A stretch of 31,820 nt of DNA. Source: a virus. The position numbers and the translations under genes were made by a program. The first letter of the stretch is position 1, and the number at the start of each line of letters is the position of its first letter. The stretch covers positions 1-31,820 of the IMG/VR virus record IMGVR_UViG_3300046532_001206; one strand, written 5' to 3'. The notes below the pieces were generated by a model. The model ran no database searches, had not been told where the DNA came from, and saw only the letters and a program-made list of their open reading frames with translations. Below are positions 5,410 through 31,820 of this stretch, piece after piece.

Positions 5410-5631
5410 ATGATTCAAGGGAGAGAACCAAGGAGACATCGGAACTTTATTTATGTGATAGAGGAAAAGGTAAAAGGTGAGTGGGTGGTGAAATGGAACT
5501 GTGGGGTCTTTATGAATTATGAAATAGGGGAGACCTCTATGAAAGAACGAGAGACGTATATAAAGAATCCTAAGAACTACAGGCTAACTATGTATATCAG
5601 CGAGAAGCCACTAGAAGGAGGGTTTTGGTAA
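5410..5631 (+). CDS. Hypothetical protein, 73 aa
   Basis: First rightward gene; ATG with GGGGAG 6 bases upstream. Basic N-terminus (MIQGREPRRHRNFIYVIEEK), then short beta-like segments with Trp (EWVVKWNCGVFMNYEIGE). Overall charged and soluble. No family recognised. Its position next to the control region suggests early expression, possibly a small regulator. Confidence 0.65.
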   Translation: MIQGREPRRHRNFIYVIEEKVKGEWVVKWNCGVFMNYEIGETSMKERETYIKNPKNYRLTMYISEKPLEGGFW

Positions 5632-5634
5632 TAC

Positions 5635-5976
5635 ATGTTTAACAAATTTCAATTAGGTACACATCCAGCTACTTTTTTATCTAAAAATAAATTAAACAGC
5701 TCCGCAGCACTGGTGTTGCTCAAGATGATGTATCACATTAATAGAATAAATATGGTAGTAGGGACTCCTAAAGAAATAGCTAAAACAGTTGGGGTAACAA
5801 TAGGGGACTTTACAATAGGCGTTCGTGCCTTGAAGAAATGTGATTTGATTCGTAAATACACTAAAAAGGAGTATATGCTTAATCCAGATGTTATGTTTAA
5901 TGGAGATGACAGGCGGTATTTTATAGTTAAGCATATGTGGGATACACAAACTACTAAAGGACTTAGAACTAAATGA
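5635..5976 (+). CDS. RepL-like winged-helix protein (putative replication initiator or regulator)
   Basis: 113 residues. TPKEIAKTVGVTIGDFTIGV (about residues 44-63) is a helix-turn-helix, followed by RALKKCDLIRKYTK and the wing with YMLNPDVMFNGDDRR (about 80-94). The order helix-turn-helix, 'L..CDLI.K', then 'MLNP....GDD' closely resembles the end of RepL initiators of Firmicute rolling-circle plasmids. In this setting it could bind the nearby 5275-5351 repeats to start replication or control divergent transcription. It lacks the long N-terminal part of plasmid RepL. The stop overlaps the next start (ATGA). Confidence 0.7.
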   Translation: MFNKFQLGTHPATFLSKNKLNSSAALVLLKMMYHINRINMVVGTPKEIAKTVGVTIGDFTIGVRALKKCDLIRKYTKKEYMLNPDVMFNGDDRRYFIVKHMWDTQTTKGLRTK

Positions 5977-7586
5977 AAACATTCAGCCTTGTTTTGGTGG
6001 CACCTTCACATTATGACGATGACGGATATGTAATTCAGTGGTTTAGGTCTTGGCTGCCGGCAAATTCACTAGCTTGTCTTTATGGTTTAGCTACTGAATG
6101 TAAAAAGACTAGGGTATTAGGTAAAAATGTCAAAATAGACCTTCATGTATTTGACGAAACAAATACACACATTAATACAGATAAAATTGCTTCTTTAATA
6201 AAAAGTGCAGATGACGGAATGCTTATGCTTGTTGGTGTACAATCAAGTCAATTTCCCCGTGCATTAGATATTGCTACACCATTACGAGCAATGGGTATTA
6301 AAGTTGCTATGGGAGGTTTTCATATATCAGGAGTGTTGGCAATGATTAAAGAGCCTGATGCTTACATGCAAAAGGCTTTAGACATTGGTGTTTCAATGTT
6401 TTCAGGAGAAGTTGAAGACAGACTTGGACAAGTTTTAATTGATGCGGCTAATAACGAACTTAAACCAATTTACAACTTTTTAGATGATTTACCTGATATT
6501 AGTAATACTGCAATGCCATTTATTCCGGCAGATAGAGTTCGTCTGACGGCAGGTTTAACAGCTAGTTTTGATGCTGGACGTGGTTGCCCTTTTACTTGTT
6601 CGTTCTGCACGATTATAAATGTTCAAGGACATACATCAAGAAACAGGTCAGTTGAAAGTATTGAGCGCATAATCCGCTTTAACGTTAAACAGGGCTTACA
6701 TTTATTTTTTATTTCTGATGATGATTTTGCACGAAATAAGAATTGGGAAAGCATTTTAGATATGTTTATTGAGTTGCGTGAAGTTCATAAATTAAAAATC
6801 GAGTTTTCTTTTATGATTGATACTCTTGCCTATAAGTTGCCAGGGTTTATTGAAAAATCAAGACGCGCAGGTGTTACACAGGTTTTTATTGGTTTAGAAA
6901 ATATTAATTCTGATGCTCTTTTAAGTGTCGATAAGCGGCAAAATAAAATTTCTGATTACCGTAAAATGTTGCTTGCTTTAGATGAGGCTGGAATTATAAC
7001 CTCTTGCGGGTATATTTTAGGTTTCCCTAATGATACTCAAGAATCAATCTTGCGCGACATTGAAATTATTAAAAAAGAACTTCCTATGGATCTAATATCG
7101 TTTCTTTGTCTTACGCCTCTTCCTGGTTCAAAAGATCATGAGAAGTTATACACTGCTGGAGTTGCTATGGATGAAGATTTAAACATGTATGATTTAAATC
7201 ATGCAGTTACTGCACATCCTAAAATGTCAAAAGTAAATTGGGAAGAAACTTATTATAAAGCTTGGAATGCTTATTACACATATGAGCATACCAAAACTAC
7301 TTTAAAACGTATGATGGCAACTGGTACAAGTTCCAGTAAAGCACTAGACTTAGTTACCCTAATTACTATGTTTAAAGGTTGTATTGGTATTGAAAAGATT
7401 CATCCTACTAAAGGTGGGGTTTTCCGCCGTAAATCACGTAAAGATAGGCGACCTACTTTACCAATGGAATCGCCTCTTGTTTTCTATCCAAAATATTTTT
7501 CTGAAACTATTTGGAAACTTTGTCGTTGGATTGTAATTATTATAAGAATGCGCTTAATTAGTAGAAAAGTGTTAAATGACTCTTAA
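5973..7586 (+). CDS. B12-binding-domain radical SAM enzyme
   Basis: 537 residues. An N-terminal B12-binding-like Rossmann domain (about 1-150; MLVGVQSSQFPRAL, VAMGGFHISG) lacks DxHxxG, as in base-off/His-off members. The radical SAM core carries the 4Fe-4S motif CPFTCSFC (C205, C209, C212), the strand FISDDDFARN, FIGLEN and GYILGFPND. The C-terminal part (DLNHAVTAHPKMS; IHPTKGGVFRRKSRKDRR) matches a bacterial subfamily related in layout to hopanoid- and lipid-modifying enzymes. Likely chemistry is radical methylation or a carbon rearrangement; substrate unknown. Full length with all cluster cysteines, so probably active and needing host cobalamin and SAM. More CGC codons than its neighbours hints at acquisition from a bacterium. 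Translationally coupled to the RepL-like gene. Confidence 0.88.
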   Translation: MKTFSLVLVAPSHYDDDGYVIQWFRSWLPANSLACLYGLATECKKTRVLGKNVKIDLHVFDETNTHINTDKIASLIKSADDGMLMLVGVQSSQFPRALDIATPLRAMGIKVAMGGFHISGVLAMIKEPDAYMQKALDIGVSMFSGEVEDRLGQVLIDAANNELKPIYNFLDDLPDISNTAMPFIPADRVRLTAGLTASFDAGRGCPFTCSFCTIINVQGHTSRNRSVESIERIIRFNVKQGLHLFFISDDDFARNKNWESILDMFIELREVHKLKIEFSFMIDTLAYKLPGFIEKSRRAGVTQVFIGLENINSDALLSVDKRQNKISDYRKMLLALDEAGIITSCGYILGFPNDTQESILRDIEIIKKELPMDLISFLCLTPLPGSKDHEKLYTAGVAMDEDLNMYDLNHAVTAHPKMSKVNWEETYYKAWNAYYTYEHTKTTLKRMMATGTSSSKALDLVTLITMFKGCIGIEKIHPTKGGVFRRKSRKDRRPTLPMESPLVFYPKYFSETIWKLCRWIVIIIRMRLISRKVLNDS

Positions 7587-7756: not shown

Positions 7757-8527
7757 ATGCTTAATGATAAGATCATACTTGTAGATGACCAAGAAATAAT
7801 TTTAGGATCTATTGATAACAAAAAACATTCTGTTTTACGAGACTTTGATAGTCTTTGGGACTCAGTTGTAAAACAGGAAAAAATCAGCCGAGGTAATACC
7901 AAAGCAGCAAGCAGTATGACTAGAAAACAAAAAGCAGCATGGTTACAGCAGTATGCTCCTAAAATTTGGCAAAAATTAACGGGTAAACGGGAAGAAAGAG
8001 CTGATTGGGGAGGAAAAACTCAGGAACTTGGGTATATTTTTCATACCAATCGTAACCACATAGCTACTTGGTATGGTCCTGTAGATGTATCAACTAATCT
8101 AGATGAAGAACAAGCATTTGGTTGTGTTGAATACGCGTATACAGATTTAAGGCACGAAGCTCAGGAAATGCCTGTTTTATTTCAAAACATTGCTAGAGAT
8201 ATAGAAAACCAGTTAGTGTTTTCTAATAACTATTTTAATAGTTTATTAGTTAATTTATATACTAATAAGGGTCTAGACCTTCACTCAGATGATGAAGCTG
8301 TTTTCACGGAAAATAACGGAATTGTAGGGGCTGTAGCAACTATCAGTTTAGGAGAAACAACAGTTGCTACTATAGCTAGGAATGATCGTAGTAAATATTT
8401 TAAGATTAAACTAACAGATAGAAGTTGTTACGTAATGCCTGAAGGTGACTTCCAGAATAAATACAAGCATTCAGTAAGTGCGCCATTAGGACGTAGAATA
8501 AGTTTAACATTTAGACATATACCTTGA
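7757..8527 (+). CDS. AlkB-like 2-oxoglutarate/Fe(II) oxygenase
   Basis: 256 residues. The C-terminal half has NLYTNKGLDLHSDDE (iron ligands H176 and D178), ATISLGE, a third ligand H238 in YKHSV, and RRISLTFR (R247 and R253, 2-oxoglutarate binding), the pattern of the AlkB family including viral members. These enzymes oxidatively remove methyl groups from DNA or RNA bases, or hydroxylate other substrates. The first ~115 residues are basic and not recognised. Likely roles are repair of alkylated phage nucleic acid, protection against host base marking, or work with the adjacent radical SAM enzyme. Starts one base after the previous stop. Confidence 0.85.
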   Translation: MLNDKIILVDDQEIILGSIDNKKHSVLRDFDSLWDSVVKQEKISRGNTKAASSMTRKQKAAWLQQYAPKIWQKLTGKREERADWGGKTQELGYIFHTNRNHIATWYGPVDVSTNLDEEQAFGCVEYAYTDLRHEAQEMPVLFQNIARDIENQLVFSNNYFNSLLVNLYTNKGLDLHSDDEAVFTENNGIVGAVATISLGETTVATIARNDRSKYFKIKLTDRSCYVMPEGDFQNKYKHSVSAPLGRRISLTFRHIP

Positions 8528-14844: not shown

Positions 14845-17355
14845 ATGGCATATATAGGAAATACACCTGCTGAAAATTACGGTAATTTAACAGTACAACA
14901 CTTTACAGTTACTGCAACTGCTGCGTACGTATTAGATACTGCAGCTGCTAATGAAAATGAAATAGCATTGTTTATTAACAATGTTAGGCAACAACCAGGA
15001 GCAAGCTACGCTTATACAGTAAGTGGTACAGCATTAACTTTATCTGCAGCAACAGCAGCAACAGATACAATGTATTGTTTGTTTTTAGGAAAAGCCCAGC
15101 ATACTTCTGTACCTACAATTGCTAATGGATCAATTACTAATGCTATGTTAGTAAGCATAGCAGCAAGTAAACTGACTGGTACAATAGATAACGCTAGAAT
15201 TAGTCTAGATGCTGCTGAAATACCTGATTTAGATACCAGTAAGATAACAACAGGCACAATTATAGATGCTAGGTTACCTTCTACAGCGTTAAATTCTAAT
15301 ATAGATTTAACTACGTTGTCAGCGACTAATCTAACTACAGGGACCGTAGCAGAAGCTAGACTTGCTACATTAGCTGCTAACAAGTTAACTGGAACAATAA
15401 TAGCTCAAGGTGATGGTTCATCTACAGACGGAAAGATTACTTTAAATTGTAGTCAAAATACACATGGAGTAAGTATTCAAAGTCCTGCTCATGTTACAAA
15501 CTCTTCTTATACATTAACTTTACCTACTACTGATGGGAATGCTGATGAAGTTTTAAAAACTGATGGTGCAGGAGTGCTTAGTTGGACTACACAGGCTTCT
15601 GGAGCGTTAGATTCTCCAGTAATCACTGGAACTTTATCGGTGCTTTCTGGTGGCTCAGTAAGTCATACAGTTGCTAATTGGTCAGATGATGTCTCTTATA
15701 CAATTGTTCCAACCAACTGCACAGTAGGAGCGGTGAATGGCTCTGGTGTATTTGTTGTGACTCATACAAGTGGCGTACCTTTTTATACAATTAAAGCAAC
15801 TACGGATTCTCTTGGATTAGCTGATTCTGCAGTAGTTACTAAAAATATAACAATTACACTAACAGCACCTACTTTAAGCAGTCCTGCAGATGTGGGTACT
15901 GCTATAGATGTTGTGTATACAATCACTTCAACTGATACTGGTGATGATAAACTTATATTAGACCCTGGTACAGCTAACTTTACCTACCAAAGTGAATCAG
16001 GGCCAGGTACGGCATCAAAAGTTGGTAATACTGTTGAATGTGTTGGTTTTGGTACTGGTAATCCTGTCGTAACAATCCAATTTACAGTCCAAGCAACTTA
16101 CTCTGTCACTGCTACAGCAGTTAAGATCGATGGTTCTTTCGGAACCTCAGCTGCCAGTAGTGCAGATAGTATCACTATTGCTAATCGAGCATTAACAGCT
16201 CCTGCTATCAGTAGTCCCGCAGATGTTGGGACTGCTACAGATGTTACTTATACAATTACTTCAAATGATGCAGAAGACAATAAACTTATATTAAATATAG
16301 GTTCATCTAACTTCACTTTGGTAAGTGTGACACCTGGTGCGGGAAGTATAGTAGGAAACACAGTTGAGGTAACAGGATTTACTACAAACAATCCTGCCGT
16401 AGTTATTCAGTATACAGCGGAAGCAACTTACTCTGTAACTGCCACAGCGGTAGATACAACAGGGTATTATGGAACTTCAGCCAGTAGTAGTGCAGATAGT
16501 ATTACTATTGCTAATTATGTCGGCATGGTTGCTAATGGTGGAGAGGTATCTGCTGGAACTATTGATGGAGATTATAAATATCATAGATTTATTAGTGGTA
16601 CTTCTAACTTCCAAATTACAACATTAGGTGATGATGCAGTTATAGAATACCTTGTTGTCGCTGGCGGAGGAGGAGGAGGTTGCTCTGGAACTGGCGGCGG
16701 GGCAGGTGCTGGTGCTGGAGGAGCAGGGGGTCTACTTTATGGCACAAACCTAACGGTGACGGCAGCTACTTTTACTGCAGTTGTTGGTGCGGGAGGGCCT
16801 GGAGCAACTGGTTCAACTTACCTAAGTGGAGCAAAGGGGGATACTAGTAGTTTTTCTGGAGGTTCTATTTCTACTTTAACAGCAACAGGAGGTGGTTTTG
16901 GGGCAGGTGGTTATAGTTCTTATATAACTCCGGGTAGTGGTGGTTCTGGAGGTGGTGGTGGACATTCCGTAACTGCTGGTGGAACAGGAATAGGTGGGCA
17001 GGGGAATAATGGTGGTGCAACTATAAGTTATACCTCTCCATATGGTGGAGGTGGTGGAGGTGGGCATAGTGCAGCTGGTCAAAATTCAATAAGTGGTAAC
17101 GTTGGTAATGGAGGAGCAGGAACAAATTATTCAATCACTGGATCGCCTGTTGGCTATGCTGGTGGAGGAGGAGGCGGCGGTACATCTTCTGCCTATGGAT
17201 CAGCTTCTCATGGTGGAGGTGTTGGTGGAAGTTCTAACACAAACGGAACTGGAGGAGTTATAAATACTGGCGGTGGAGGGGGAGGTTCAGGATCATTTGC
17301 TATCGCTGGAAATGGCGGTAGTGGTATAATAGTTATCCGCTACAAATTCCAATAA
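14845..17355 (+). CDS. Tail fibre/adhesin 1 with glycine-rich C-terminal domain
   Basis: 836 residues. N-terminal attachment region (MAYIGNTPAENYGNLTVQHF), a region with SKLTG.I.NARI-type repeats (about 95-190), a ~75-residue beta domain (about 255-335, TGTLSVLSGGSVSHTVANWS), two ~110-residue Ig-like repeats (about 340-557), and a ~235-residue glycine-rich domain (about 604-836) ending GGSGIIVIRYKFQ. Such domains form polyglycine-helix sandwiches in T4-type adhesins and bind the host surface. No chaperone is recognised, but the 121-aa gene after it may assist. Paralogous to 17734 and, in part, 21945. Confidence 0.85.
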   Translation: MAYIGNTPAENYGNLTVQHFTVTATAAYVLDTAAANENEIALFINNVRQQPGASYAYTVSGTALTLSAATAATDTMYCLFLGKAQHTSVPTIANGSITNAMLVSIAASKLTGTIDNARISLDAAEIPDLDTSKITTGTIIDARLPSTALNSNIDLTTLSATNLTTGTVAEARLATLAANKLTGTIIAQGDGSSTDGKITLNCSQNTHGVSIQSPAHVTNSSYTLTLPTTDGNADEVLKTDGAGVLSWTTQASGALDSPVITGTLSVLSGGSVSHTVANWSDDVSYTIVPTNCTVGAVNGSGVFVVTHTSGVPFYTIKATTDSLGLADSAVVTKNITITLTAPTLSSPADVGTAIDVVYTITSTDTGDDKLILDPGTANFTYQSESGPGTASKVGNTVECVGFGTGNPVVTIQFTVQATYSVTATAVKIDGSFGTSAASSADSITIANRALTAPAISSPADVGTATDVTYTITSNDAEDNKLILNIGSSNFTLVSVTPGAGSIVGNTVEVTGFTTNNPAVVIQYTAEATYSVTATAVDTTGYYGTSASSSADSITIANYVGMVANGGEVSAGTIDGDYKYHRFISGTSNFQITTLGDDAVIEYLVVAGGGGGGCSGTGGGAGAGAGGAGGLLYGTNLTVTAATFTAVVGAGGPGATGSTYLSGAKGDTSSFSGGSISTLTATGGGFGAGGYSSYITPGSGGSGGGGGHSVTAGGTGIGGQGNNGGATISYTSPYGGGGGGGHSAAGQNSISGNVGNGGAGTNYSITGSPVGYAGGGGGGGTSSAYGSASHGGGVGGSSNTNGTGGVINTGGGGGGSGSFAIAGNGGSGIIVIRYKFQ
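15862..16516 (+). repeat. Two tandem ~330-bp Ig-like repeats in adhesin 1
   Basis: Units begin at 15862 and 16195. Each encodes LTAP..SSPADVGTA.DV.YTITS ... FTV/TAE.ATYSVTATAV ... SADSITIAN. They match the three units in adhesin 2 (18301-19284). Identity is clear at protein level and partly at DNA level, so recombination among them is likely. Confidence 0.8.
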
Positions 17356-17733: not shown

Positions 17734-20157
17734 ATGGCAATTAGTAAAATTAATTCAAAGTCGTTAGAAGATTCGACTGTTCTTTCAGCTGATATTGCTG
17801 ATGATTCTATTATAGATGCTGATATCAAATCAGATGCAGCTATAGTAACTTCAAAATTATCAGGTGCAGTTACCTCAATTCCTTCTCATGGATTAGCTAC
17901 TTCAGCAACAACAGATACAACTAATGCTGATAATATTAGTAGTGGAACTGTAAATACAGCTAGATTAGGAACTGGTGCAGCAGATAACACAAAATTCTTA
18001 AGAGGTGACAATACTTGGCAAGTAGTAGCTATAGGGGCTACACAATTAGATTTACCAACAGTAACTGGAACTCTGTCAGTACTTTATGGTGGAACAGTAA
18101 CTCATACAATTACTAATTGGTCGGATGATCTTTCTTGGACTATTACTCCAACCAATTGTACTGTAAGTACAGTAAATGCTTCAGGCGAATTTGTAGTAAC
18201 TCACACAAGTGGCTTACCTTCTTACACAATTATAGCTACTACAGCTTCATTAGGTCTAGCTGATTCAAATACAGTAACTAAGAACCTTACAACAGCATTA
18301 ACAGCCCCTACTATTAGTAGCCCTGCTGACGTTGGTACTGCTATAGATGTTATTTACACAATAACTTCAACTACAGTTGATGACGATAAATTAATACTAA
18401 ATCCTGGAACAGCTAACTTTACCTTCGTAAATGTTTCAGGGGGAGGTACTGCATCGCACGTAGGAAATACTGTTGAGTGTGTTGGGTTTACTACCAATAA
18501 TCCGGTAGTAACTATCCAATTCACAGCTCAAGCAACTTATTCAGTAACAGCTACGTCTGTTAAAATTGATGGTTCTTTTGGAACTTCAGCTGCTAGTAAT
18601 ACTGATAATATTACAATTGCTAATAGAGTACTAACAGCTCCTAGTTTAAGTAGTCCTGCTGATGTCGGCACTGCTACAGATGTTGTATACACAATTACTT
18701 CTAATGATGCTGATGATAACAAACTTATATTAGATCCAGGTACAGCTAATTTTACTTATCAAGGCGTATCTGGAGCAACCGCTTCAAAAGTCGGTAACAC
18801 AGTTGAATGTGTTAGTTTTGGTGCTAGTAACCCTGTAGTAACTATTCAATTTACAGCAGAGGCTACTTATTCTGTAACAGCTACTGCTGCAGATACAGCA
18901 TCATATTATGGTACTTCGGCTGCTAGTAGTGCAGATAGCATTACTATTCTTAATCCAACATTATCAGCACCTGCTATAAGTAGTCCTGCTAACGTTGGTA
19001 CTTTAACAGATGCTGCATACACAATTACTTCTAATGACATTAACGATAATAAACTTATATTAGATATAGGTTCTAGTAACTTTAATTTTGGTAATGTCAA
19101 CACTGGTATAGCATCTAAGGTAGGTAATACCGTTGAATGTACTGGCTTTACTACTAATAATCCTGTAGTAACTATTCAATTCACAGTAGAAGCTACTTAC
19201 TCTGTAACTGCCAAAGCTATAGATACAGCAGGGTATTATCATGATTCAGCTTCTAGTAGCGCAGATAGTATCACTATTCAGAATTTTGTTGGAAATATAG
19301 AATATTTAGTTGTTGCAGGTGCAGGAGGTGGTGGTGGAACTTATGGCGGTGGGGGCGGGGCAGGAGGCTATAGAACAAATTATGGTAGCACAGTCATTAC
19401 GTTAACACAGGGTAATGTTTATACAGCATATGTGGGATTAGGAGGTGCAGGAGGGCCGTTAGGATCTTTTGGTACAAGTGGTGCTGCTACCGCAGGAGAC
19501 TATTCTTCATTAAGCGGAACTGGAATTACAACAATTACTGCAACTGCTGGTGGTCAGGGCGGTGGATATAATGGATATTCTCCGGGAACTGGTGGTTCTG
19601 GTGGTGGAGGATATCGTGGGGGATCGGGAGTAGCTGGTAATACTGGCGGTAATGGAGGCGCACCATCAATCCCTGAAGGTTATGCTGGTGGAAACGCTTG
19701 GTCAGGAGGAGGTTGGCCAGCTGGGGGCGGGGGTGGAGCTGGAGCAGTAGGGTCTAATTACGTAGGTATTACCACAGGTGGTGCAGGAGGTGTTGGCAAA
19801 TCAAATAGTATTACTGGAAGTGCGCTTTATTATGCTGGAGGTGGAGGAGGCGGTTCAGAAGGATGGGCTACAGGAATTGGTGGAGCTGGTGGAAATGGAG
19901 GCGGTGGAAATGGCGGTAAATATGCTGGTGCTTCGGGTCTAGGAGTCAACGGTACAGATGGGCGGGGAGGAGGCGGGGGAGGCTCATCATATGGATCGGG
20001 TTCATATGGAGGTGGTGGAGATGGTGGCAATGGGGTAGTTATTCTTAGAATAGCTACAACAGATTATAATAGTAGTGGTGTTAGTGGTGGTACAGCAGTT
20101 TCAAGCGGATCAGATACAGTAATAACTTTTACTGGGGCAGGAACATACACAGCTTAG
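17734..20157 (+). CDS. Tail fibre/adhesin 2 with glycine-rich C-terminal domain
   Basis: 807 residues. Short N-terminal region (MAISKINSKSLEDSTVLSAD), the ~75-residue TGTLSVLYGG domain, three ~110-residue Ig-like repeats (about 188-515), and a glycine-rich domain (about 520-770) whose end differs from adhesin 1: GVVILRIATTDYN followed by a Ser/Gly tail. Start ATG with AAGGAGATATAA. Built from the same modules as adhesin 1 but with one more repeat, so it arose by duplication and recombination. Probably a second receptor-binding protein. Confidence 0.85.
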   Translation: MAISKINSKSLEDSTVLSADIADDSIIDADIKSDAAIVTSKLSGAVTSIPSHGLATSATTDTTNADNISSGTVNTARLGTGAADNTKFLRGDNTWQVVAIGATQLDLPTVTGTLSVLYGGTVTHTITNWSDDLSWTITPTNCTVSTVNASGEFVVTHTSGLPSYTIIATTASLGLADSNTVTKNLTTALTAPTISSPADVGTAIDVIYTITSTTVDDDKLILNPGTANFTFVNVSGGGTASHVGNTVECVGFTTNNPVVTIQFTAQATYSVTATSVKIDGSFGTSAASNTDNITIANRVLTAPSLSSPADVGTATDVVYTITSNDADDNKLILDPGTANFTYQGVSGATASKVGNTVECVSFGASNPVVTIQFTAEATYSVTATAADTASYYGTSAASSADSITILNPTLSAPAISSPANVGTLTDAAYTITSNDINDNKLILDIGSSNFNFGNVNTGIASKVGNTVECTGFTTNNPVVTIQFTVEATYSVTAKAIDTAGYYHDSASSSADSITIQNFVGNIEYLVVAGAGGGGGTYGGGGGAGGYRTNYGSTVITLTQGNVYTAYVGLGGAGGPLGSFGTSGAATAGDYSSLSGTGITTITATAGGQGGGYNGYSPGTGGSGGGGYRGGSGVAGNTGGNGGAPSIPEGYAGGNAWSGGGWPAGGGGGAGAVGSNYVGITTGGAGGVGKSNSITGSALYYAGGGGGGSEGWATGIGGAGGNGGGGNGGKYAGASGLGVNGTDGRGGGGGGSSYGSGSYGGGGDGGNGVVILRIATTDYNSSGVSGGTAVSSGSDTVITFTGAGTYTA
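18301..19284 (+). repeat. Three tandem ~330-bp Ig-like repeats in adhesin 2
   Basis: Units start at 18301, 18634 and 18964 (333 and 330 bp apart). Each carries SSPA(D/N)VGT..D...YTITS, a variable loop, and F(T)(T/A)..NPVVTIQFT...ATYSVTA before SITI. Same family as 15862-16516. Confidence 0.8.
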
Positions 20158-21944: not shown

Positions 21945-22880
21945 ATGCCAACTTTAGCAACAATTAATGGAATAGCAGAAGATACTATAGCAACTCACAA
22001 TGGTGGAACTGCTGCACTCTACACATCTAAAAATGGTGATACTTGGCAACATGTATCTTGGACAGTGGCAAATGGTGGTAATACGCATGTTCAAGATGGG
22101 GTAACAGATTATAAAGTAGCTACATTTACTGGTGATGGAACATTCCAAATTACAACATTGGGTGATGATGCAATCATTCAGTATCTAGTTATTGCTGGTG
22201 GAGGTGCTGGCTCATCTGGGGCTGCTGGTGGAGGTGGTGCTGGTGGCTATCTTACCGCCTCAAGCTTTGCTGTAACCGCAGTTACGTATACCATAGATGT
22301 GGGTGGTGGTGGCTCTGGAATAGGTGGATCTGGAGGAGCTGGTACTAACGGTGAAAATTCATCAATCTCACATGCTTCTATAACAGACATTGTTGCAACT
22401 GGGGGAGGTCGTGGTGGTTACTGGGGTGCTGGTCAAGCAGGTGGATCTGGAGGTGGTGGATCTGGAGGTAACGGTGTCGTAACAACAGGAGGTGCTGCTT
22501 CTCCTGCTGGTCAGGGAAATGCTGGAGGTACTGGTGTTGTAGGCGCTCCATATTCAAGTGCAGGTGGAGGTGGTGCTGGAAGTATAGGTGGTAATGCTGG
22601 TTCAAATGGTGGTGTAGGTGGTTCTGGTTCATCTAGTTCTATAACTGGATCGCCAGTAATCCGTGCTGGTGGAGGTGGGGGCTCAGGTTATGCAGGTTAT
22701 AGCAATGGTGGGGCAGGAGGAAGTGGAATTGGTGGGGGTGGACATTCTGGCTCTGGCAATGGAAGTGGAGGTAATGGTACGGCAAATACAGGATCAGGCG
22801 GTGGCGGTGTGGGTTCAGGATCAGGAACTAGTGGGAATGGCGGTTCTGGTGTGGTAATTATTCGTTACAAATTTCAATAG
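21945..22880 (+). CDS. Glycine-rich adhesin 3
   Basis: 311 residues: a short N-terminal part with ATINGIAEDTIATHNGG and WQHVSWTVANGGNTHVQDGV, then a glycine-rich domain (about 85-311) ending GNGGSGVVIIRYKFQ, nearly the same as in adhesin 1. It lacks the Ig-like repeats, so it is a compact receptor-binding tip likely carried by the shaft encoded at 21039. AAGGAAAAATT upstream. Confidence 0.82.
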   Translation: MPTLATINGIAEDTIATHNGGTAALYTSKNGDTWQHVSWTVANGGNTHVQDGVTDYKVATFTGDGTFQITTLGDDAIIQYLVIAGGGAGSSGAAGGGGAGGYLTASSFAVTAVTYTIDVGGGGSGIGGSGGAGTNGENSSISHASITDIVATGGGRGGYWGAGQAGGSGGGGSGGNGVVTTGGAASPAGQGNAGGTGVVGAPYSSAGGGGAGSIGGNAGSNGGVGGSGSSSSITGSPVIRAGGGGGSGYAGYSNGGAGGSGIGGGGHSGSGNGSGGNGTANTGSGGGGVGSGSGTSGNGGSGVVIIRYKFQ

Positions 22881-23342: not shown

Positions 23343-23893
23343 TGAATTACTTTATTGTTCTTATTGTATGTATAATATTTTGGTTACCTTCTACGTTGTA
23401 CGCTGTTGATAGTAATACCGTTAGTTCTTCAACAGTTACTGGTACAACTACAGTAGATAGAACACCAAGCACAGCTGTATCCCCAAATATAATTATAAAT
23501 AATCAAGATGTGTGTACTACCGGTATTAGTGGTGCAGCTCAATCTGCATGGTTTGGTCTTTCTTTTGGTAGAACAGTTGAAGATAAAAATTGTGAAAGAC
23601 TAAAGCTTGCACGTTCTCTGTATGGTATGGGCATGAAAGTAGCCTCTGTGTCTTTACTATGTCAGGATACTAGAGTGTTTCAAGCTATGGAAATGGCAGG
23701 TACTCCATGTCCTATAGATGGAAAAATTGGAGAAGCCGCAAAAGTAATATGGGATAAAGAGCCATACCGAAGACCTGATTATCATGAATGGAGAAATAAG
23801 AAAGAAAACCACGATAAGGTTGTCAGGCTAGATACATTTAGCTCAGAAGATACAGATAAGTCATACAATGAGGGCTGGAATCCTTATGAATAA
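23342..23893 (+). CDS. Secreted Cys-containing protein of unknown function
   Basis: 183 residues from ATG 23342; an in-frame earlier start lies inside the preceding gene. A signal peptide MNYFIVLIVCIIFWLPSTLY-A (hydrophobic core, likely cleavage after residue 21) is followed by a Ser/Thr linker and a domain with four Cys (DVCTTG, DKNCERLK, LLCQDTRVF, GTPCPID) fit for two disulfides. The segment RLKLARSLYGMGMKVASVSL...CQDTRVFQAMEMAG recurs in tailed-phage proteins I cannot name. Exported before or during assembly; role unknown. Confidence 0.72.
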   Translation: MNYFIVLIVCIIFWLPSTLYAVDSNTVSSSTVTGTTTVDRTPSTAVSPNIIINNQDVCTTGISGAAQSAWFGLSFGRTVEDKNCERLKLARSLYGMGMKVASVSLLCQDTRVFQAMEMAGTPCPIDGKIGEAAKVIWDKEPYRRPDYHEWRNKKENHDKVVRLDTFSSEDTDKSYNEGWNPYE

Positions 23894-25058
23894 GATTTAC
23901 TTACATGTAGTTTTAATTATCTTGTTGTTTTGTACTCCTGTATTTGCAGATACAGCAACTACTGCTGATGTAACAGAGAAATCTACAGGAGCTACTCATG
24001 TTTGTGGCAGAAATGATGCAGCTTGTTCATGGGATCCACGATCTAATATTTACTCTGATGGCGGTTCTGACGATGATGTAGTGTACTGGGACAGTCATGG
24101 TGGCGATTGGAATATTACTAATAATATCAAAACATTTATGACTGAAGCTGAAATGCTTCAAGGGTTTACTATGGATAGTTCTATTGGCTTAAGAGATAGG
24201 AACTACATAGGCGGTGATGCATTTACAGTACAAATTAAAGTAACAGACGGTACTACTACTTATTCAGATACTCAGGAATTTACTACTCATGCAGGACAAT
24301 CATATGAAACAATAACTAGTCAATTAATAGTTCCTGAAAATACATTAGCGTATTCACTTGCTACATTTGGGTTAATACTTGAGGGCACTAGTTTAACTCA
24401 TGGGTATAATGGGCCACAAACAAATGCGATCAACTTAACTTCTACTTATAATCTTATTAATCAAGCAGAAGATACTATTTTAAATTTAGTTGCTAATGCT
24501 GTCGATGATATTCTTATAGATAGCATGAATATGAATACAGCAAATATGCAAATTAACGTTGTTACTCCAAGTGGAACACAATCTCTTAATATTCCTGTAG
24601 CAGCAAGCCCAGGTGCTATAAGTATGTCAGTTCCTTCTGTAGGAGGCGCAATCCAACAAATAAAGATTAATACTGGTATGGCTGCTCCTAGTACTCCAGC
24701 ACCAGTTGCACCTAAAGTTGCTACTGCTGTAGCTAAAGTTAAATCAGTAGTAAGTAAATCTAAAGCTGAATCAAAACAAACTAAATCAGATAAAGCTAAA
24801 GCTGTACAGGCTATAGTTACAAGAGTACTACAAGCAGTCTCGATGGCAGGAGGAGATACAGATAGTACTAAACTAGCATTAATGAGTATTCTTGGAACAC
24901 CAGGATTTCGTGCTTACCAACAACAAGAAATACCAGATGCTGCATTTTATACTAGTGAAGTTCCTTATGAGGCTACACTTATAGATCCTTTAGGTTCCAT
25001 TTACGCATTAGGTAGTGATACACTGATGGATAAGATGATTAATTCACAGTATAAATAG
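23886..25058 (+). CDS. Secreted protein, 390 aa, possible virion or periplasmic component
   Basis: I use ATG 23886 because the signal peptide MNKIYLHVVLIILLFCTPVF-A starts there; it overlaps the previous stop by 8 bases. Downstream: Cys-containing segment (ATHVCGRNDAACSWDP), beta region, a Lys/Ala-rich helix (VAKVKSVVSKSKAESKQT) and a C-terminal domain (GTPGFRAYQQQEIPDAAFY). No enzymatic motif recognised. An exported phage protein of this size may modify the envelope, aid exit or belong to the virion; undecided. Confidence 0.7.
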   Translation: MNKIYLHVVLIILLFCTPVFADTATTADVTEKSTGATHVCGRNDAACSWDPRSNIYSDGGSDDDVVYWDSHGGDWNITNNIKTFMTEAEMLQGFTMDSSIGLRDRNYIGGDAFTVQIKVTDGTTTYSDTQEFTTHAGQSYETITSQLIVPENTLAYSLATFGLILEGTSLTHGYNGPQTNAINLTSTYNLINQAEDTILNLVANAVDDILIDSMNMNTANMQINVVTPSGTQSLNIPVAASPGAISMSVPSVGGAIQQIKINTGMAAPSTPAPVAPKVATAVAKVKSVVSKSKAESKQTKSDKAKAVQAIVTRVLQAVSMAGGDTDSTKLALMSILGTPGFRAYQQQEIPDAAFYTSEVPYEATLIDPLGSIYALGSDTLMDKMINSQYK

Positions 25059-25067
25059 TAAGTAACT

Positions 25068-25643
25068 ATGGAAGTAGAATACGGAGGAATAAAAGCAACT
25101 GGCGGTAAATTATTCGTCATAATATCTTTATTAGGTACTGTTGGTGGTGCTCTTTGGGGTGGATTTGAGTTCTATAAAGATTACCAGGATATGAAGAAAC
25201 AAATAACGTCATATGTAGCACCAGATCTTTCTGCATTTGATAAGCAGTTAGGAATACTAGATATTGAGGTTAATACTACAAAAGAACTGATTAGTACTGA
25301 GATTAACTCTATAAAAGAAAGTGTAGATGAAGCTCAAGATACTACACGAGATATAAGAACAACTATGAAGACAGATATTAATGGATTTTCAGATCAAATA
25401 GCTGCAATAGATAAACGATCAAGAGAAGACGGCTTAGAGACGCGAACAGCAATGCGGAATGCGGAGAATGAAGTAAGAGCACTAATAGCTAACACATCTA
25501 AACGATGGGATGATAAGCTACAAAAAGTAGATAATAAATTACAACATGTAGATAGCCAAATAGAAGCATTAGAGAATAAACTAGATAAGAAAATAACTAA
25601 AGCTCTTGAAAATCCATTAGCAGCAATGAGTAAAACAAAATGA
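25068..25643 (+). CDS. Membrane-anchored coiled-coil protein 1
   Basis: 191 residues. One membrane segment (about 15-37, LFVIISLLGTVGGALWGGFE), then ~150 residues of heptad-like charged helix (KQLGILDIEVNTTKELIST; KVDNKLQHVDSQIEALENKL). Shape resembles an inner-membrane spanin or a tail-tape-measure-like helper. Followed by overlapping genes that have the same shape. Confidence 0.72.
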   Translation: MEVEYGGIKATGGKLFVIISLLGTVGGALWGGFEFYKDYQDMKKQITSYVAPDLSAFDKQLGILDIEVNTTKELISTEINSIKESVDEAQDTTRDIRTTMKTDINGFSDQIAAIDKRSREDGLETRTAMRNAENEVRALIANTSKRWDDKLQKVDNKLQHVDSQIEALENKLDKKITKALENPLAAMSKTK

Positions 25644-25972
25644 ATATAACAGCAAGTATTCTCGAGCATTTATGGGTGTTGTTTATTGGGCTTGGAAGCT
25701 GGGCCTTGAACCGCATAACAAGTAAAATCGATATTCTTGAAAAAGGAAAAGCTGATGCTCAAGATACAAAATTAGAACATGCTAATATAGCAACATTAGT
25801 ACATGAGTTAGATAGACGAGTAGATGAAAATCAGCATTTAAGTGTTGGACGTGGGGAACACAAAACAGATGTTACGTCAATTCATAGGCGTATTAACGAT
25901 ATGGAGAAAAACAAAGCAGATAAGATAAAACATATTAAAACTTACACATCTAGAGAAAAAAATGATATCTGA
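25640..25972 (+). CDS. Membrane-anchored coiled-coil protein 2
   Basis: 110 residues; ATG overlaps the preceding TGA. Membrane segment near residues 9-24 (EHLWVLFIGLGSWALN), then a helix with heptads (SKIDILEKGKADAQDTKLEH; RRINDMEKNKADKIKH). Candidate inner-membrane spanin or holin regulator; no direct evidence of function. Confidence 0.68.
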   Translation: MNITASILEHLWVLFIGLGSWALNRITSKIDILEKGKADAQDTKLEHANIATLVHELDRRVDENQHLSVGRGEHKTDVTSIHRRINDMEKNKADKIKHIKTYTSREKNDI

Positions 25973-27033: not shown

Positions 27034-27310
27034 TGGTTTACCTTTAGTTGAATTAATACCTCCTGTAGTTAATTTTGGTTTAGGATTTTATGACCATAAT
27101 GACTACTACTCTAAAGAGTGTTTATGGTATGACGAAATTAAACTAAATGACGCGACTAAGAAATGGTTACTGGACAGTAACCCTCCTGAAGTCGTCAGTA
27201 AAGATCTATCTAAAGTTAGTAGAAACAACGACATATATAGAGAAGTGTGTAAAAAAGATAAAGGTGTGGTTGATAAACTTAAAGGTAAAACAAAAAGAAT
27301 ACTCGAATAA
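26972..27310 (+). CDS. Lipoprotein, outer-membrane-spanin-like
   Basis: 112 residues from ATG 26972, nested in the +1-shifted frame over the end of the holin-like gene. MKLKLKLGLVLVCLMFSMGC is a lipoprotein signal peptide (KLKLKL positive start, hydrophobic core, lipobox FSMGC, Cys20). I prefer this start to longer ones because it gives a normal signal and has AAAGAG upstream. The mature part has Cys pairs in KECLWYDEIKLND and REVCKKDKG, a spacing seen in phage outer-membrane spanins. Spanins fuse inner and outer membranes in the last lysis step. Partner might be one of the coiled-coil proteins at 25068-26183. Confidence 0.68.
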   Translation: MKLKLKLGLVLVCLMFSMGCSGLPLVELIPPVVNFGLGFYDHNDYYSKECLWYDEIKLNDATKKWLLDSNPPEVVSKDLSKVSRNNDIYREVCKKDKGVVDKLKGKTKRILE

Positions 27311-27338
27311 CCTTGATGGCAACCAGGGAATAGCACGT

Positions 27339-27749
27339 ATGAATGAATACAAAGCAAAAGTAGTTAAAGTAGTAGATGGGGATACTATAGATGTAGATAT
27401 AGATCTAGGGTTTAGTATTATTCTTTCTAACCAAAGAATTAGACTATTTGGAATAGATACTCCTGAGTCACGAACACGCGATAAAGAAGAGAAATTCTAC
27501 GGTAAGCTATCAGCTCAGTTCTTAAAAGATAGGTGTAAGAAGGGCTCTTACATTACGCTTAGAACCTATTTAGATAAGAAGGGTAAATTTGGTAGAATAC
27601 TTGGTGAGATAGTAGTTGATGAAGTTAATTTAAACCAACAAATGGTTAAACAGCATTTAGCTGTTGAATACTTTGGACAGAGTAAAGAAAGTATTGAAAA
27701 AGAACATTTAAAGAATAGACTTAAAATCTCAAAACGGAAAAAACTATGA
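27339..27749 (+). CDS. Staphylococcal-nuclease-like (thermonuclease) protein
   Basis: 136 residues from ATG 27339. VVDGDTIDVD (D13, D15), IRLFGIDTPE (R35, D40, E43) and GKFGRILGE (R86) supply all catalytic and calcium residues known from staphylococcal nuclease, whose R35/D40/E43/R87 numbering is nearly the same. It should cut DNA and RNA with calcium. No signal peptide, so it would act in the cytoplasm, for example on host nucleic acid, or after lysis. Longer in-frame starts run through the upstream gene and are rejected. Confidence 0.9.
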   Translation: MNEYKAKVVKVVDGDTIDVDIDLGFSIILSNQRIRLFGIDTPESRTRDKEEKFYGKLSAQFLKDRCKKGSYITLRTYLDKKGKFGRILGEIVVDEVNLNQQMVKQHLAVEYFGQSKESIEKEHLKNRLKISKRKKL

Positions 27750-27942: not shown

Positions 27943-28305
27943 TTAAGAATACATCCAAACTACACCGGCAGTCTTGTTAGCATCTACATCTACGTGTATA
28001 AAAGTCTTTGCAATCCCAACCCTGTCAAAGACTTGCATAGCAGCATGCAGTAGCTCATACCTATTTGAGGCTCCGTTGTATGCTAAATCAGCAGCCCATC
28101 CTTCTATATGACTAGATGTAGGTGTTGCATTAATTGCACTATTATGATTACTGCATCTAATGCCACTATTTATAGTTATAGATCTACCTAAGATATCTCT
28201 AACTTGCTGCACTTTTATAGCTAGTTCATCTTTAATATTATCTTTTCCACATCCACATTTACAGGTATATTCAGCTCTACTAAAATTATCTGTTAGGTCT
28301 CCCAC
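27943..28305 (-). CDS. M15-family peptidase endolysin
   Basis: 120 residues. NFSRAEYTCKCGCG at the N-terminus, SGIRCSNHNSAINATPTSSH with H66, GWAADL with D73 and FIHVDVD with H104 give the zinc ligands of peptidase M15A (D-Ala-D-Ala carboxypeptidase-like endolysins). It cuts peptidoglycan cross-links after the holin opens the membrane. GTG start with AAGGAGATAAC upstream. It lies alone on the minus strand in a rightward region, back-to-back with the 27850 peptide and divergent from the carrier protein. No signal peptide. Confidence 0.92.
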   Translation of the reverse strand: MGDLTDNFSRAEYTCKCGCGKDNIKDELAIKVQQVRDILGRSITINSGIRCSNHNSAINATPTSSHIEGWAADLAYNGASNRYELLHAAMQVFDRVGIAKTFIHVDVDANKTAGVVWMYS

Positions 28306-28454: not shown

Positions 28455-28829
28455 ATGGAAAAAGTTAAATTTACATTCGATGATCCAGAATTTTTATACA
28501 TTGTTAATATAATTTTAAAAGAAGATCATGATGAAGATGAGGAATACGAACCAATAACTAGTATGGATGATAGTTTTAACCTTCATGGGTTAGATAGCCT
28601 AAGTGTTATGATGTTTTTTATTTGGGTATCTGATTTTTTTGGCATTCCTGAAGATAAATTTCAAGAGCTTGCAAAAGAAAAGGATTTTACTATTAGAACT
28701 TTAAAAGATTTTATAAGTAGAGAAGCTACTCAAACTTTTACGTATAATGATGCTATGGCGTATTCTAAACATTCATTTAATAATGATGATGACGCTATAC
28801 GATCTAAAACGGATAATTCAAAGTCCTAA
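28455..28829 (+). CDS. Acyl carrier protein
   Basis: 124 residues. LHGLDSLSVMMFFIWVSDFF contains the carrier motif with S48, the expected 4'-phosphopantetheine site, followed by helix 3 (GIPEDKFQELAKEKDFT) and TIRTLKDFI. Strongly acidic, with an Asp/Glu run near residues 23-31. Longer than a usual ~80-residue ACP, by a ~35-residue polar C-terminal tail. It should be activated by a host phosphopantetheinyl transferase and hold acyl chains for the downstream ketosynthase. No clear ribosome site, so the start rests on family length. Confidence 0.88.
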   Translation: MEKVKFTFDDPEFLYIVNIILKEDHDEDEEYEPITSMDDSFNLHGLDSLSVMMFFIWVSDFFGIPEDKFQELAKEKDFTIRTLKDFISREATQTFTYNDAMAYSKHSFNNDDDAIRSKTDNSKS

Positions 28830-28830
28830 T

Positions 28831-29844
28831 ATGCTACTGACTCATACTAATTCTGTTTATTCAGAAAAGTTGACTTTATTAGATCATATTCCATATCCTC
28901 AGTATGTTCATCAAGTCGGAAATGGAGGAGGCAAGTTAGTTACAAAAGGAATTAAACTAGTAGCTAGCGAATTAGTACGATATGTTCTTACAGGTAAACA
29001 TGGAGCTGCCCCTGGAACTCGGGATTATATTAAAAAATTATTAGCTACTCCTACTCGTAAAGTAGGGTTAATATTAGCTTCAGGCAGTACTTGTTGGATG
29101 GGGTACACAACATGTATTCCTAAAACTGATCAGTATCCTGTGTTTAGATTAGCACCTATGGCAGTTACTCAAGTATACGCTGGGTATTTAGCTAGTCAAT
29201 TAGGATCTTTTGATTATATATCAACAGATAGTGTAAGTTGTATTAGTGGGCATTCTGCTTGGTATACTGCTTACACTTTATTGCAATTAGAGCGTCTTGA
29301 CGCAGTTGTAGTTATCGCAGTAGATAATGGGCTTTCAGAAGAATACTTACATGTATTTGGCGAACATGAATTAAGTAAATTAGCTAATGAAGAAGATAAC
29401 TTAGATATTATTAAATTTCACTTAGGACAAGCATGCAATATATCAGTATTTGAAAGTGAATCGTGTAATTACAATACAAACAACAATGTATTAGCTAAAA
29501 TTAAAGATATACATATAGCAGCGGAATATCATGTGTCTCCATTAGGTATTTCATGTGAAGGCATTGGATATAAAAAAGTAATGACTAGAGTTAATACAGA
29601 TAATATTGATTTTATAAAAACTCATAGTACTTTTTCAAATGATAATGATATAGAAAGTAAGTTAATTAAAGATATATTTGGAGATATTAAAACAATTAAC
29701 TATAAATTACGCATTGGCCATACTATGGGAGTGTCTACTGCTGTAGAAACAGCATTAGCAGTACAAGAAGAATCTGGTAAGTTTCTTAGCTTAGGAGCTG
29801 GTATGGGTAATACATTTTCATCTGCTGTAGTGGAGATTTTATAA
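28831..29844 (+). CDS. Compact beta-ketoacyl synthase
   Basis: 337 residues from ATG 28831, one base past the carrier-protein stop. Conserved features: active Cys137 in DSVSCISGHSA, H265 in FIKTHSTFSNDND, K292 and H297 in YKLRIGHTMG, E306 and the C-terminal SLGAGMGNTFSSA. The spacing K292-H297 and H297-E306 equals FabF K335-H340-E349. Usual FabF-type enzymes are ~410 residues, so the N-terminal region is trimmed. It should condense acyl and malonyl groups on a carrier protein. With the carrier directly upstream, this is the core of a fatty-acid- or polyketide-like step. A non-condensing (chain-length-factor) role is unlikely because Cys is present. Confidence 0.9.
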   Translation: MLLTHTNSVYSEKLTLLDHIPYPQYVHQVGNGGGKLVTKGIKLVASELVRYVLTGKHGAAPGTRDYIKKLLATPTRKVGLILASGSTCWMGYTTCIPKTDQYPVFRLAPMAVTQVYAGYLASQLGSFDYISTDSVSCISGHSAWYTAYTLLQLERLDAVVVIAVDNGLSEEYLHVFGEHELSKLANEEDNLDIIKFHLGQACNISVFESESCNYNTNNNVLAKIKDIHIAAEYHVSPLGISCEGIGYKKVMTRVNTDNIDFIKTHSTFSNDNDIESKLIKDIFGDIKTINYKLRIGHTMGVSTAVETALAVQEESGKFLSLGAGMGNTFSSAVVEIL

Positions 29845-30185
29845 TGATATTTGCGCATAGTAGTTTAATACAAGAAGGAGAAGCTGTTTTATTTTATAGA
29901 TTTAATCGTGCTTTGAATGGCTATATGGTAGCAGGGTTATATATTGCTCCTGATATGGTATCTAAAATGAATTTTGCTAAAGTATGGAAATATTTTGTGT
30001 CTGAAATAGTACAAGCAGATGATATATATTGTACTATTTCTTTAGATGTAATGAATTCTATGTTTAAAAAATATATAGATTATCACAGTACAGTAGATGG
30101 TATTAAGATATATAAAGTTGATAAGTTTCTTAAAAAGAAATACAGTAGCTATGATAAACATATAGCAAGTGTTACTAAGCCATAA
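29844..30185 (+). CDS. Hypothetical protein between ketosynthase and portal
   Basis: 113 residues. Starts at an ATG overlapping the ketosynthase stop (TAATG). Sequence features: EGEAVLFYRFNRALNGYMVA, APDMVSKMNFAKVWKYFVSE, CTISLDVMNSMFKKYIDY and a basic C-terminus (KFLKKKYSSYDKH). The alternating helix/strand pattern recalls phage acetyltransferase-fold (GNAT) proteins near the portal, but the acyl-CoA-binding motif is not visible. Could be an acyltransferase partner of the upstream genes or a structural helper; not assigned. Confidence 0.62.
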   Translation: MIFAHSSLIQEGEAVLFYRFNRALNGYMVAGLYIAPDMVSKMNFAKVWKYFVSEIVQADDIYCTISLDVMNSMFKKYIDYHSTVDGIKIYKVDKFLKKKYSSYDKHIASVTKP

Positions 30186-30210: not shown

Positions 30211-31820
30211 ATGAGTCATGAAGATGATCCTAATTTAGATACAACTGAAACAGATGCTGCTAGTTTAGTAGATTGGGAAAACCCGCCTACTCTTGCAGAG
30301 CTTAAAGCAGATTATGATTCTGCTCGAGTAGCTCATCAAGTTCATACTGATGAAGTAGATGCTTGGTTAAGAGTACTTAATGGGGAACAAACAATTAATG
30401 CAAAGAGAGGTCGTTCTAAACTCGTACCTCGATTAGCGCGTAAACAAGCTGAATGGCGTTACGCTGCTTTATCAGAACCATTCCTATCTACAGATGATTT
30501 ATTTAACACTTCCCCTCAAACTTTTGAAGATAAAGAAGCAGCAGTACAAAATGGTATGTTATTAAATTACCAGCTTAACTGCCGTATGGATAAAGTAAGT
30601 TTTATTGATAACTATATTCGTACAGCTGTAGATGAAGGTACTGTAGTTGTACGTGTAGGTTGGGAATTTGAAGAAGATAAACGTAAAGTCTATACAGATA
30701 TAATAGAAGTGCAAGTAGTTGCGGGCCCAGATGGGCAACCTATTCAACAAGAAGTTAAAACAGGTGAAAAAGCGTCAACAAAAACTATTACTACTAAGAA
30801 TCAACCAGTATTAACAGTATGTGATTATAACAATTTAGTATTAGATCCTACTTGTGAAGGGGATATAGAAAAAGCTAATTTTGCTGTGTTTAGTTTTGAA
30901 ACTTCATTATCAGAACTTAAAAAAGATGGACGGTATAAAAATCTTGATGATATTAACTTTGAAAGTGCTTCAGTATTGTCTGAACCTGATCATGCAGTTA
31001 ATTCAGATGATGATTCTTTTACATTTAAAGATAAAGCACGTAAGAAAGTTATTGCTCGTGAATACTGGGGATATTGGGATATTGATGATACTGGGGAGGT
31101 TAAACCTTTTGTAGCTACTTGGGTAGGTAGTACTTTTATTAGATTAGAAGAAAATCCTTATCCAGATAAAAAACTTCCTTTTGTATTAGTTCAATACCTA
31201 CCTAGACGTAAAAATATATACGGAGAACCAGATGCAGCTCTTATCGAAGATAATCAAAAAATCGTGGGTGCTGTTACTCGTGGCATTATTGACATTATTG
31301 GCCGTAGCGCTAGTGGGCAACAAGGTATTAGAAAAGATGCCCTTGATGTAACTAACGCTCGTAAATTTGAACGAGGTGAAGATTACAAGTTTAATGCTAA
31401 TGTAGATCCTAAACAAGCATTTCATATGGAGATATACCCTGAGATTCCCCGGTCTGCTCTTGAAGTATTAAACATGCAAAATAACGATGCTGAAGCATTA
31501 ACAGGTGTTAAAGCATTTACTCAAGGTATTTCAGGACAAGCTTTAGGAGCTACAGCTACTGGTATTAGATCAGCACTTGATGCTACATCTAAACGGGAGC
31601 TAGGTATTTTACGCAGATTGTCTAATGGGTTAAATCAAATTGGACGTAAAGTTATTTCTATGAATTCAGAATTCTTAGAAGATGAAGAAATTATTCGCAT
31701 CACTAATGAAGAATTTGTAGCAATTAACCGCAATGACTTAGGTGGTAAATATGATATTAAGCTTAATATTTCTACTGCTGAAGCGGATGAGCAAAAAGCT
31801 AGTGAGTTAGCTTTTATGCT
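30211..31820 (+). CDS. Portal protein, N-terminal 536 residues (cut by window edge)
   Basis: Starts MSHEDDPNLDTTETDAASLV and remains open to the edge. VDAWLRVLNGEQ near residue 49, KLVPRLARKQAEWRYAALSE, FIDNYIRTAVDEGTVVVRVG, LPFVLVQYLPRRKNIYGEPD, LIEDNQKIVGAVTRGIIDII and the long helix ATGIRSALDATSKRELGILR followed by RLSNGLNQIGRKVI match podovirus-type portal proteins. It forms the 12-subunit DNA gate to which terminase and connector bind. Only a weak TAGG precedes the start, but the N-terminus and frame are convincing. Confidence 0.9.
   Translation, partial: MSHEDDPNLDTTETDAASLVDWENPPTLAELKADYDSARVAHQVHTDEVDAWLRVLNGEQTINAKRGRSKLVPRLARKQAEWRYAALSEPFLSTDDLFNTSPQTFEDKEAAVQNGMLLNYQLNCRMDKVSFIDNYIRTAVDEGTVVVRVGWEFEEDKRKVYTDIIEVQVVAGPDGQPIQQEVKTGEKASTKTITTKNQPVLTVCDYNNLVLDPTCEGDIEKANFAVFSFETSLSELKKDGRYKNLDDINFESASVLSEPDHAVNSDDDSFTFKDKARKKVIAREYWGYWDIDDTGEVKPFVATWVGSTFIRLEENPYPDKKLPFVLVQYLPRRKNIYGEPDAALIEDNQKIVGAVTRGIIDIIGRSASGQQGIRKDALDVTNARKFERGEDYKFNANVDPKQAFHMEIYPEIPRSALEVLNMQNNDAEALTGVKAFTQGISGQALGATATGIRSALDATSKRELGILRRLSNGLNQIGRKVISMNSEFLEDEEIIRITNEEFVAINRNDLGGKYDIKLNISTAEADEQKASELAFM

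Follow-up and report, generated by a model that had tools for sequence, protein, structure and literature searches.

An apparently virus-specific acyl carrier protein and ketosynthase family, with a GNAT-like partner, among the virion genes of ocean bacteriophages

Why would a bacteriophage keep genes for an acyl carrier protein (ACP) and a ketosynthase (KS) beside its portal gene? The question is raised by a stretch of DNA of 31,820 bases (hereafter, the window), which is one complete IMG/VR record, and in which an ACP gene (28455 to 28829, plus strand, 124 aa) is followed by a KS gene (28831 to 29844, plus strand, 337 aa), with only one base between the ACP stop codon and the KS ATG at 28831; a second contig (L002, 37,070 bases) encodes an identical KS. 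The original prediction had read these frames correctly, as an ACP with a DSL serine and a ketosynthase one base further on, but its statement that the portal comes next was inexact. The portal gene does lie downstream (30211 to 31818, plus strand, extending past the contig end), but a third gene on the same strand, X113 (29844 to 30185, 113 aa), sits in between, overlapping the KS stop codon (29842 to 29844) by one base (TAATG) and preceding the portal. We give a probability of roughly 45% to the reading that ACP, KS, and X113 constitute a virus-specific acyl-ACP module, which makes and transfers an acyl chain late in infection.

The genomic context identifies the carrier as an N4-like phage. 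The portal protein is of the SU10/N4 type (PF23899, E 2e-128) and shares 54% identity with its counterparts in N4-like Salmonella phages, and an N4-like RNA polymerase gene occupies positions 2 to 1213 of the window, which together place the phage in the Schitoviridae; no giant virion RNA polymerase was seen within the window fragment. The upstream neighbor of the ACP gene, on the opposite strand to the ACP and KS genes, encodes an M15-type peptidase/endolysin (27943 to 28305, minus strand). From its position, the module is probably expressed late, together with the virion genes.

The ACP carries the motif D47-S48-L49 within GLDSL, and S48 is the predicted site of phosphopantetheine attachment. 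As a single sequence, the window ACP matched the Pfam PP-binding model at E 0.019, which is under the cut-off, and a family profile built from 29 sequences, searched against the PDB, matched ACPs almost throughout (best E 3e-4, others weaker), with very few non-ACP families among its matches. The D-S pair is invariant in the family (75/75 sequences), and DSL or DSM is present in 129 of the 130 ACPs from later scans, the sole exception being clipped by the start of its contig, so that both the motif and homology to ACPs mark these proteins as carrier proteins.

The KS is similarly faint when taken alone. Pfam ketoacyl-synt matched it at E 0.04, under the cut-off, and NCBIfam ketoacyl-ACP synthase models matched it at E 9e-11, with scores far under every NCBIfam cut-off (35.9 bits for the FabF equivalog, against a curated cut-off of 493.75). 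Its homologues in another phage lineage, the second one considered here, score above the Pfam gathering cut-offs for both ketoacyl-synthase domains, and a profile of 40 KS sequences matched FabF structures in the PDB at E 4.7e-30 over profile positions 90 to 359 of 370, that is, across most of the enzyme. The profile searches thus gave the ketosynthase (E about 5e-30) and ACP matches that had been foreseen, and none of them placed the KS in a non-ketosynthase thiolase-like family. In an hhalign alignment, KS residues 107 to 311 pair with residues 134 to 355 of E. coli FabF, and C137 (the nucleophile), H265, K292, and H297 fall on the FabF Cys, His, Lys, and His, exactly the residues and the FabF-like spacing originally proposed. 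C137 is a cysteine in all 83 KS sequences, and H265, K292, and H297 are identical in 84/84.

The family departs from elongating ketosynthases of the FabF/FabB type at its gate. FabF has a GFGG gate loop with the gating residue Phe400 (PMC7138838), whereas GMGN stands there in all 70 of the KS sequences that cover the loop; in the window's lineage, moreover, H-S-T-F-S replaces H-G-T-x-T. The enzyme is also 76 residues shorter than E. coli FabF (337 versus 413 aa; about 75 had been predicted), and by the hhalign end points ∼27 of the missing residues are N-terminal, ∼17 internal, and ∼32 C-terminal. Because of the GMGN loop and the missing residues, the KS may do something other than elongation. 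Judged from its sequence, it is apparently intact despite the shortening: dN/dS is about 0.17 to 0.37 (Nei-Gojobori, comparisons with the window), and ACP distances correlate with KS distances (r 0.90).

The third protein looks like an acyltransferase. The AlphaFold model of X113 is modest (pLDDT 66), and the PDB matches listed for it are nearly all GNATs, with Z-scores of 7.3 or less, a range common for chance arrangements; on this model, X113 appears GNAT-like and resembles GNAT acyltransferases. In the second lineage, KS is followed by a gene for a protein of mostly 143 to 152 aa, which has a confidently modeled (pLDDT 94.3) GNAT fold, with Z 12.1 to HP0935, 11.8 to RimI, and GNATs filling the matches listed. 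No sequence homology between X113 and this protein was found by hhalign. Neither protein has the usual acyl-CoA loop: Q/R-x-x-G-x-G/A occurs in 0/58 X113 sequences, and the few matches to the CoA-loop motif among 45 second-lineage third proteins all lie elsewhere in the sequence. This absence from X113 is as expected if the acyl donor is the ACP, and may equally betray a dead, purely structural GNAT fold. GNAT-fold enzymes that use acyl-ACP are established, HlyC/ApxC, LuxI, and FeeM among them. As for other identities of X113, hhalign found no homology to P22 gp14 or T7 gp13, and N4 gp60, a spanin, was rejected.

The arrangement of these genes among relatives indicates which of them belong together. 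Our X113 scan gave 51 testable loci, each with 1,450 bp or more of sequence ahead of X113, and in the window's lineage an ACP lies upstream of X113 in every one (51/51). A KS lies between the two in 39 of these loci and is absent from 12; a 13th, shorter locus (L230) is likewise without KS. At each of the 13 loci without KS, the ACP gene runs directly up to X113 or overlaps it and still encodes an intact DSL motif; in one of these records, the whole 73,993 bp contain no KS. Mapped on the portal tree, the presence or absence of KS requires 10 changes, at least 7 of them forced by starred branches, and KS state clusters no more than shuffled labels do. On an ACP tree built without the C-terminal tail, the KS-less ACPs form one clade (SH-aLRT 97); both trees are short, and recombination is likely. 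The type of ACP therefore tracks the presence of KS, which argues for a cognate ACP-KS pair, and the ACP seems to travel as a cassette, whether or not a KS accompanies it. The best reading for the window's lineage is a core of ACP plus GNAT-like protein, with the KS as an optional upstream chain-builder; this constant partnership, and the optional place of the KS within it, had escaped the original prediction. KS-less ACPs (L195, L219, L229 to L232, and L240) are extended at the C-terminus by a tail in which a GNY pattern recurs (KGNYKGNYFGG or similar), a feature absent from the KS-associated ACPs seen.

The family is also widespread, a further feature that had been missed. IMG/VR scans recovered 34 loci close to the window and 66 close to Caudoviricetes sp. 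ctpbd312 (MW202545), and a scan with the family profile recovered at least 578 viral contigs. A collection of genomes from 84,980 species yielded one contig (62,951 bp, from a Hyphomicrobiales MAG), which carries a portal gene of the same type downstream and is therefore probably a phage contig; because the peptide patterns searched for in IMG/VR and in the genomes were not the same, the contrast between the two is strong without amounting to an exact ratio. A clear family member was found in only one of 50,697 phage records, MW202545. The ACP-KS family thus constitutes a widespread, apparently virus-specific branch situated among virion genes, and its carriers are a group of ocean bacteriophages. 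Bordetella phage BPP-1, which had been expected to carry ACP and KS genes, gave no hits with the KS, ACP, or X113 profiles, and the other phage matches of the MW202545 KS in tblastn (unannotated Listeria, Enterococcus, Staphylococcus, and Pseudomonas phage or fecal records) look like contaminating bacterial fab genes.

MW202545 is one of the closest parallels. Like the window, it has in a row an ACP, a KS (28.5% identity; named 3-oxoacyl-ACP synthase in the record), and a gene of the GNAT fold family, but it belongs to another phage lineage, and its third gene is unrelated to X113 in sequence. This third gene is flanked by a gene of the P22 gp10 type on one side and a transglycosylase gene on the other, a position similar to that of gp14 in P22. 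We found no study of the MW202545 module in the literature, strict searches of open-access literature for a phage ketosynthase returned nothing, and the same literature yielded no virus-specific ACP-KS family that combines a compact, gate-altered KS with a GNAT-like partner in a virion operon. The original prediction knew of no phage pathway using such a pair, but phage ACP and fabF genes as such have been reported (PMC8224337; PMC11705849). What was already known is the occurrence of ACPs and fab genes in phages; what appears to be new is the apparently virus-specific family and its GNAT-like partner.

How might such a module work? A host phosphopantetheinyl transferase would attach the arm to S48 of the ACP. 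In phages that have the KS, an acyl group would be loaded on C137, as the invariant catalytic residues suggest, and H265 and H297 (with K292) would condense it with malonyl-ACP, so that the phage ACP would end up carrying a beta-ketoacyl chain. The cycle could be completed by reductases of the host, given that neither a phosphopantetheinyl transferase nor a FabG-type reductase was found in the 11 virus records searched. X113 would then pass the chain from the ACP to an acceptor, a step to which its fold and linkage point, and the likeliest acceptors would be proteins of the virion or of the ejection machinery produced at the same time, the alternatives being lipids and small amines. The original proposal of a carrier and condensing pair in a late structural operon is supported, as is acyl-chain chemistry in general, by (i) the invariant residues, (ii) the low dN/dS, and (iii) the correlated divergence of ACP and KS. 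Any of the three uses it had named (membrane lipids, lysis, or virion acylation) may apply. What suggests a virion target is gene position and the resemblance to T7 and P22 proteins described below. A full viral lipidation pathway, in which ACP, KS, and the GNAT-like transferase would make a special acyl group and attach it during assembly to the portal, an ejection protein, or another virion protein to give acylated particles, we regard as doubtful. If the GNAT-like protein does transfer the chain, acyl chemistry would be linked to virion assembly, and a possible clue would be at hand to the role that GNAT-like proteins play in the morphogenesis of T7 and P22.

The main rivals to the acyl-ACP module are redirection of host lipids and a nonchemical role in assembly. 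In the first, ACP and KS would be auxiliary metabolic genes that boost or redirect host fatty-acid synthesis, for instance for membrane lipid, and X113 would be an unrelated virion gene. The ACP-KS order is the acpP-fabF order of E. coli, where the ACP gene is also directly upstream of an enzyme with a Cys-His-Lys-His active site of matching spacing. Rhodobacteraceae (Roseobacter) prophages, too, carry an ACP followed by a KS, as fabG-acpP-fabF, and these have been described as auxiliary metabolic genes (PMC8224337); the prophages keep the cellular gene order, with no GNAT-like partner mentioned in the available text of that report. Furthermore, in a third lineage a predicted ferritin-like diiron protein lies beside ACP and KS (L149, 6455 to 7243; L151, 6978 to 7685; L153, 344 to 1198), and its invariant EExRHG and DExRH motifs resemble those of acyl-ACP desaturases; it could be assigned to no single enzyme family, since its matches to acyl-ACP desaturase, rubrerythrin, and AcsF were all weak, and its presence would also suit the acyl-ACP module.

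Unlike cellular FabF and its acpP-fabF setting, however, the highly diverged and apparently virus-specific KS of the window sits beside structural genes, close to the portal, with no fabG and no phosphopantetheinyl transferase seen. Moreover, the adjacency of ACP and X113 in 13/13 KS-less loci indicates that X113 is not incidental, and an ACP without a KS would hardly raise lipid synthesis. The latter point extends to the cultured Alteromonas schitoviruses R22Y and its relative V19, in which an ACP in the structural operon is followed by an overlapping, conserved 167-aa gene (these gene pairs span 23774 to 24554 in PP212876 [L170] and 24951 to 25701 in OP751378 [L171]). For R22Y, the ACP gene has been classed as auxiliary metabolic (PMC11705849). 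The family profile found no KS in R22Y, and neither the ACP nor the 167-aa gene of these phages is detectably related to the window's ACP and X113. Their operons are of the same kind, however, and their being in culture makes part of the proposal testable now. On balance, we consider redirection of host lipids unlikely.

In the second rival, the ACP and the GNAT-fold protein would serve as assembly factors or chaperones for the portal or ejection apparatus, as T7 gp13 and P22 gp14 may, with no acyl chemistry at all. The module does adjoin the portal. Among viral matches in Foldseek, the second-lineage third protein, which has a similar genome position, resembles, though more weakly than it does the GNATs of the PDB, "internal virion protein A" (T7 gp13-type, E 8e-5) and, at E 3e-3, a member of DUF2824, the family of P22 gp14, and its gene precedes a transglycosylase gene, as gp14 precedes gp7/gp20/gp16. 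ACPs, furthermore, are known to bind some partners without chemistry. T7 gp13 differs from X113 in carrying an R-x-x-G-x-A loop motif. A scaffold would not be expected to conserve the ACP serine so strictly, or to keep the KS catalytic residues in sequences of down to ∼28% identity, and we know of no scaffold role for a KS. A nonchemical role therefore also seems improbable to us.

Still less probable is poisoning or diversion of the host, in which ACP and KS would sequester malonyl groups or phosphopantetheine, so that lipid synthesis in the host would cease once the lysis stage is reached. The module lies beside a lysis-type gene; the virus records are without a reductase, so that the KS alone would leave beta-keto products; and the gate loop is altered, where an F400A gate mutant of FabF is known to form an off-pathway lactone (PMC7138838). 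Yet the constant ACP-X113 pair and the KS-less relatives would remain unexplained. That the KS is a decayed relic, an inactive ORF of thiolase fold, is hardly credible, since, for all its shortness and changed gate loop, its catalytic residues are invariant and its dN/dS is low.

Apart from the acyl-ACP module as seen in the window, other arrangements exist. At loci L154, L155, and L157, ACP and KS are present but X113 was not found, which counts against the module reading. At L154, a gene for a DUF2269 integral membrane protein (5561 to 6004, E 1.5e-11) lies between ACP and KS, just ahead of an N4-type portal gene. Elsewhere in the window, three genes (14845 to 17355, 17734 to 20157, and 21945 to 22880) all match phrog_2295, a family of unknown function, and are apparent paralogues; a gene at 7757 to 8527 matches an alkylated-DNA-repair family (phrog_21963), and one at 27147 to 27749 belongs to an endonuclease family (phrog_452).
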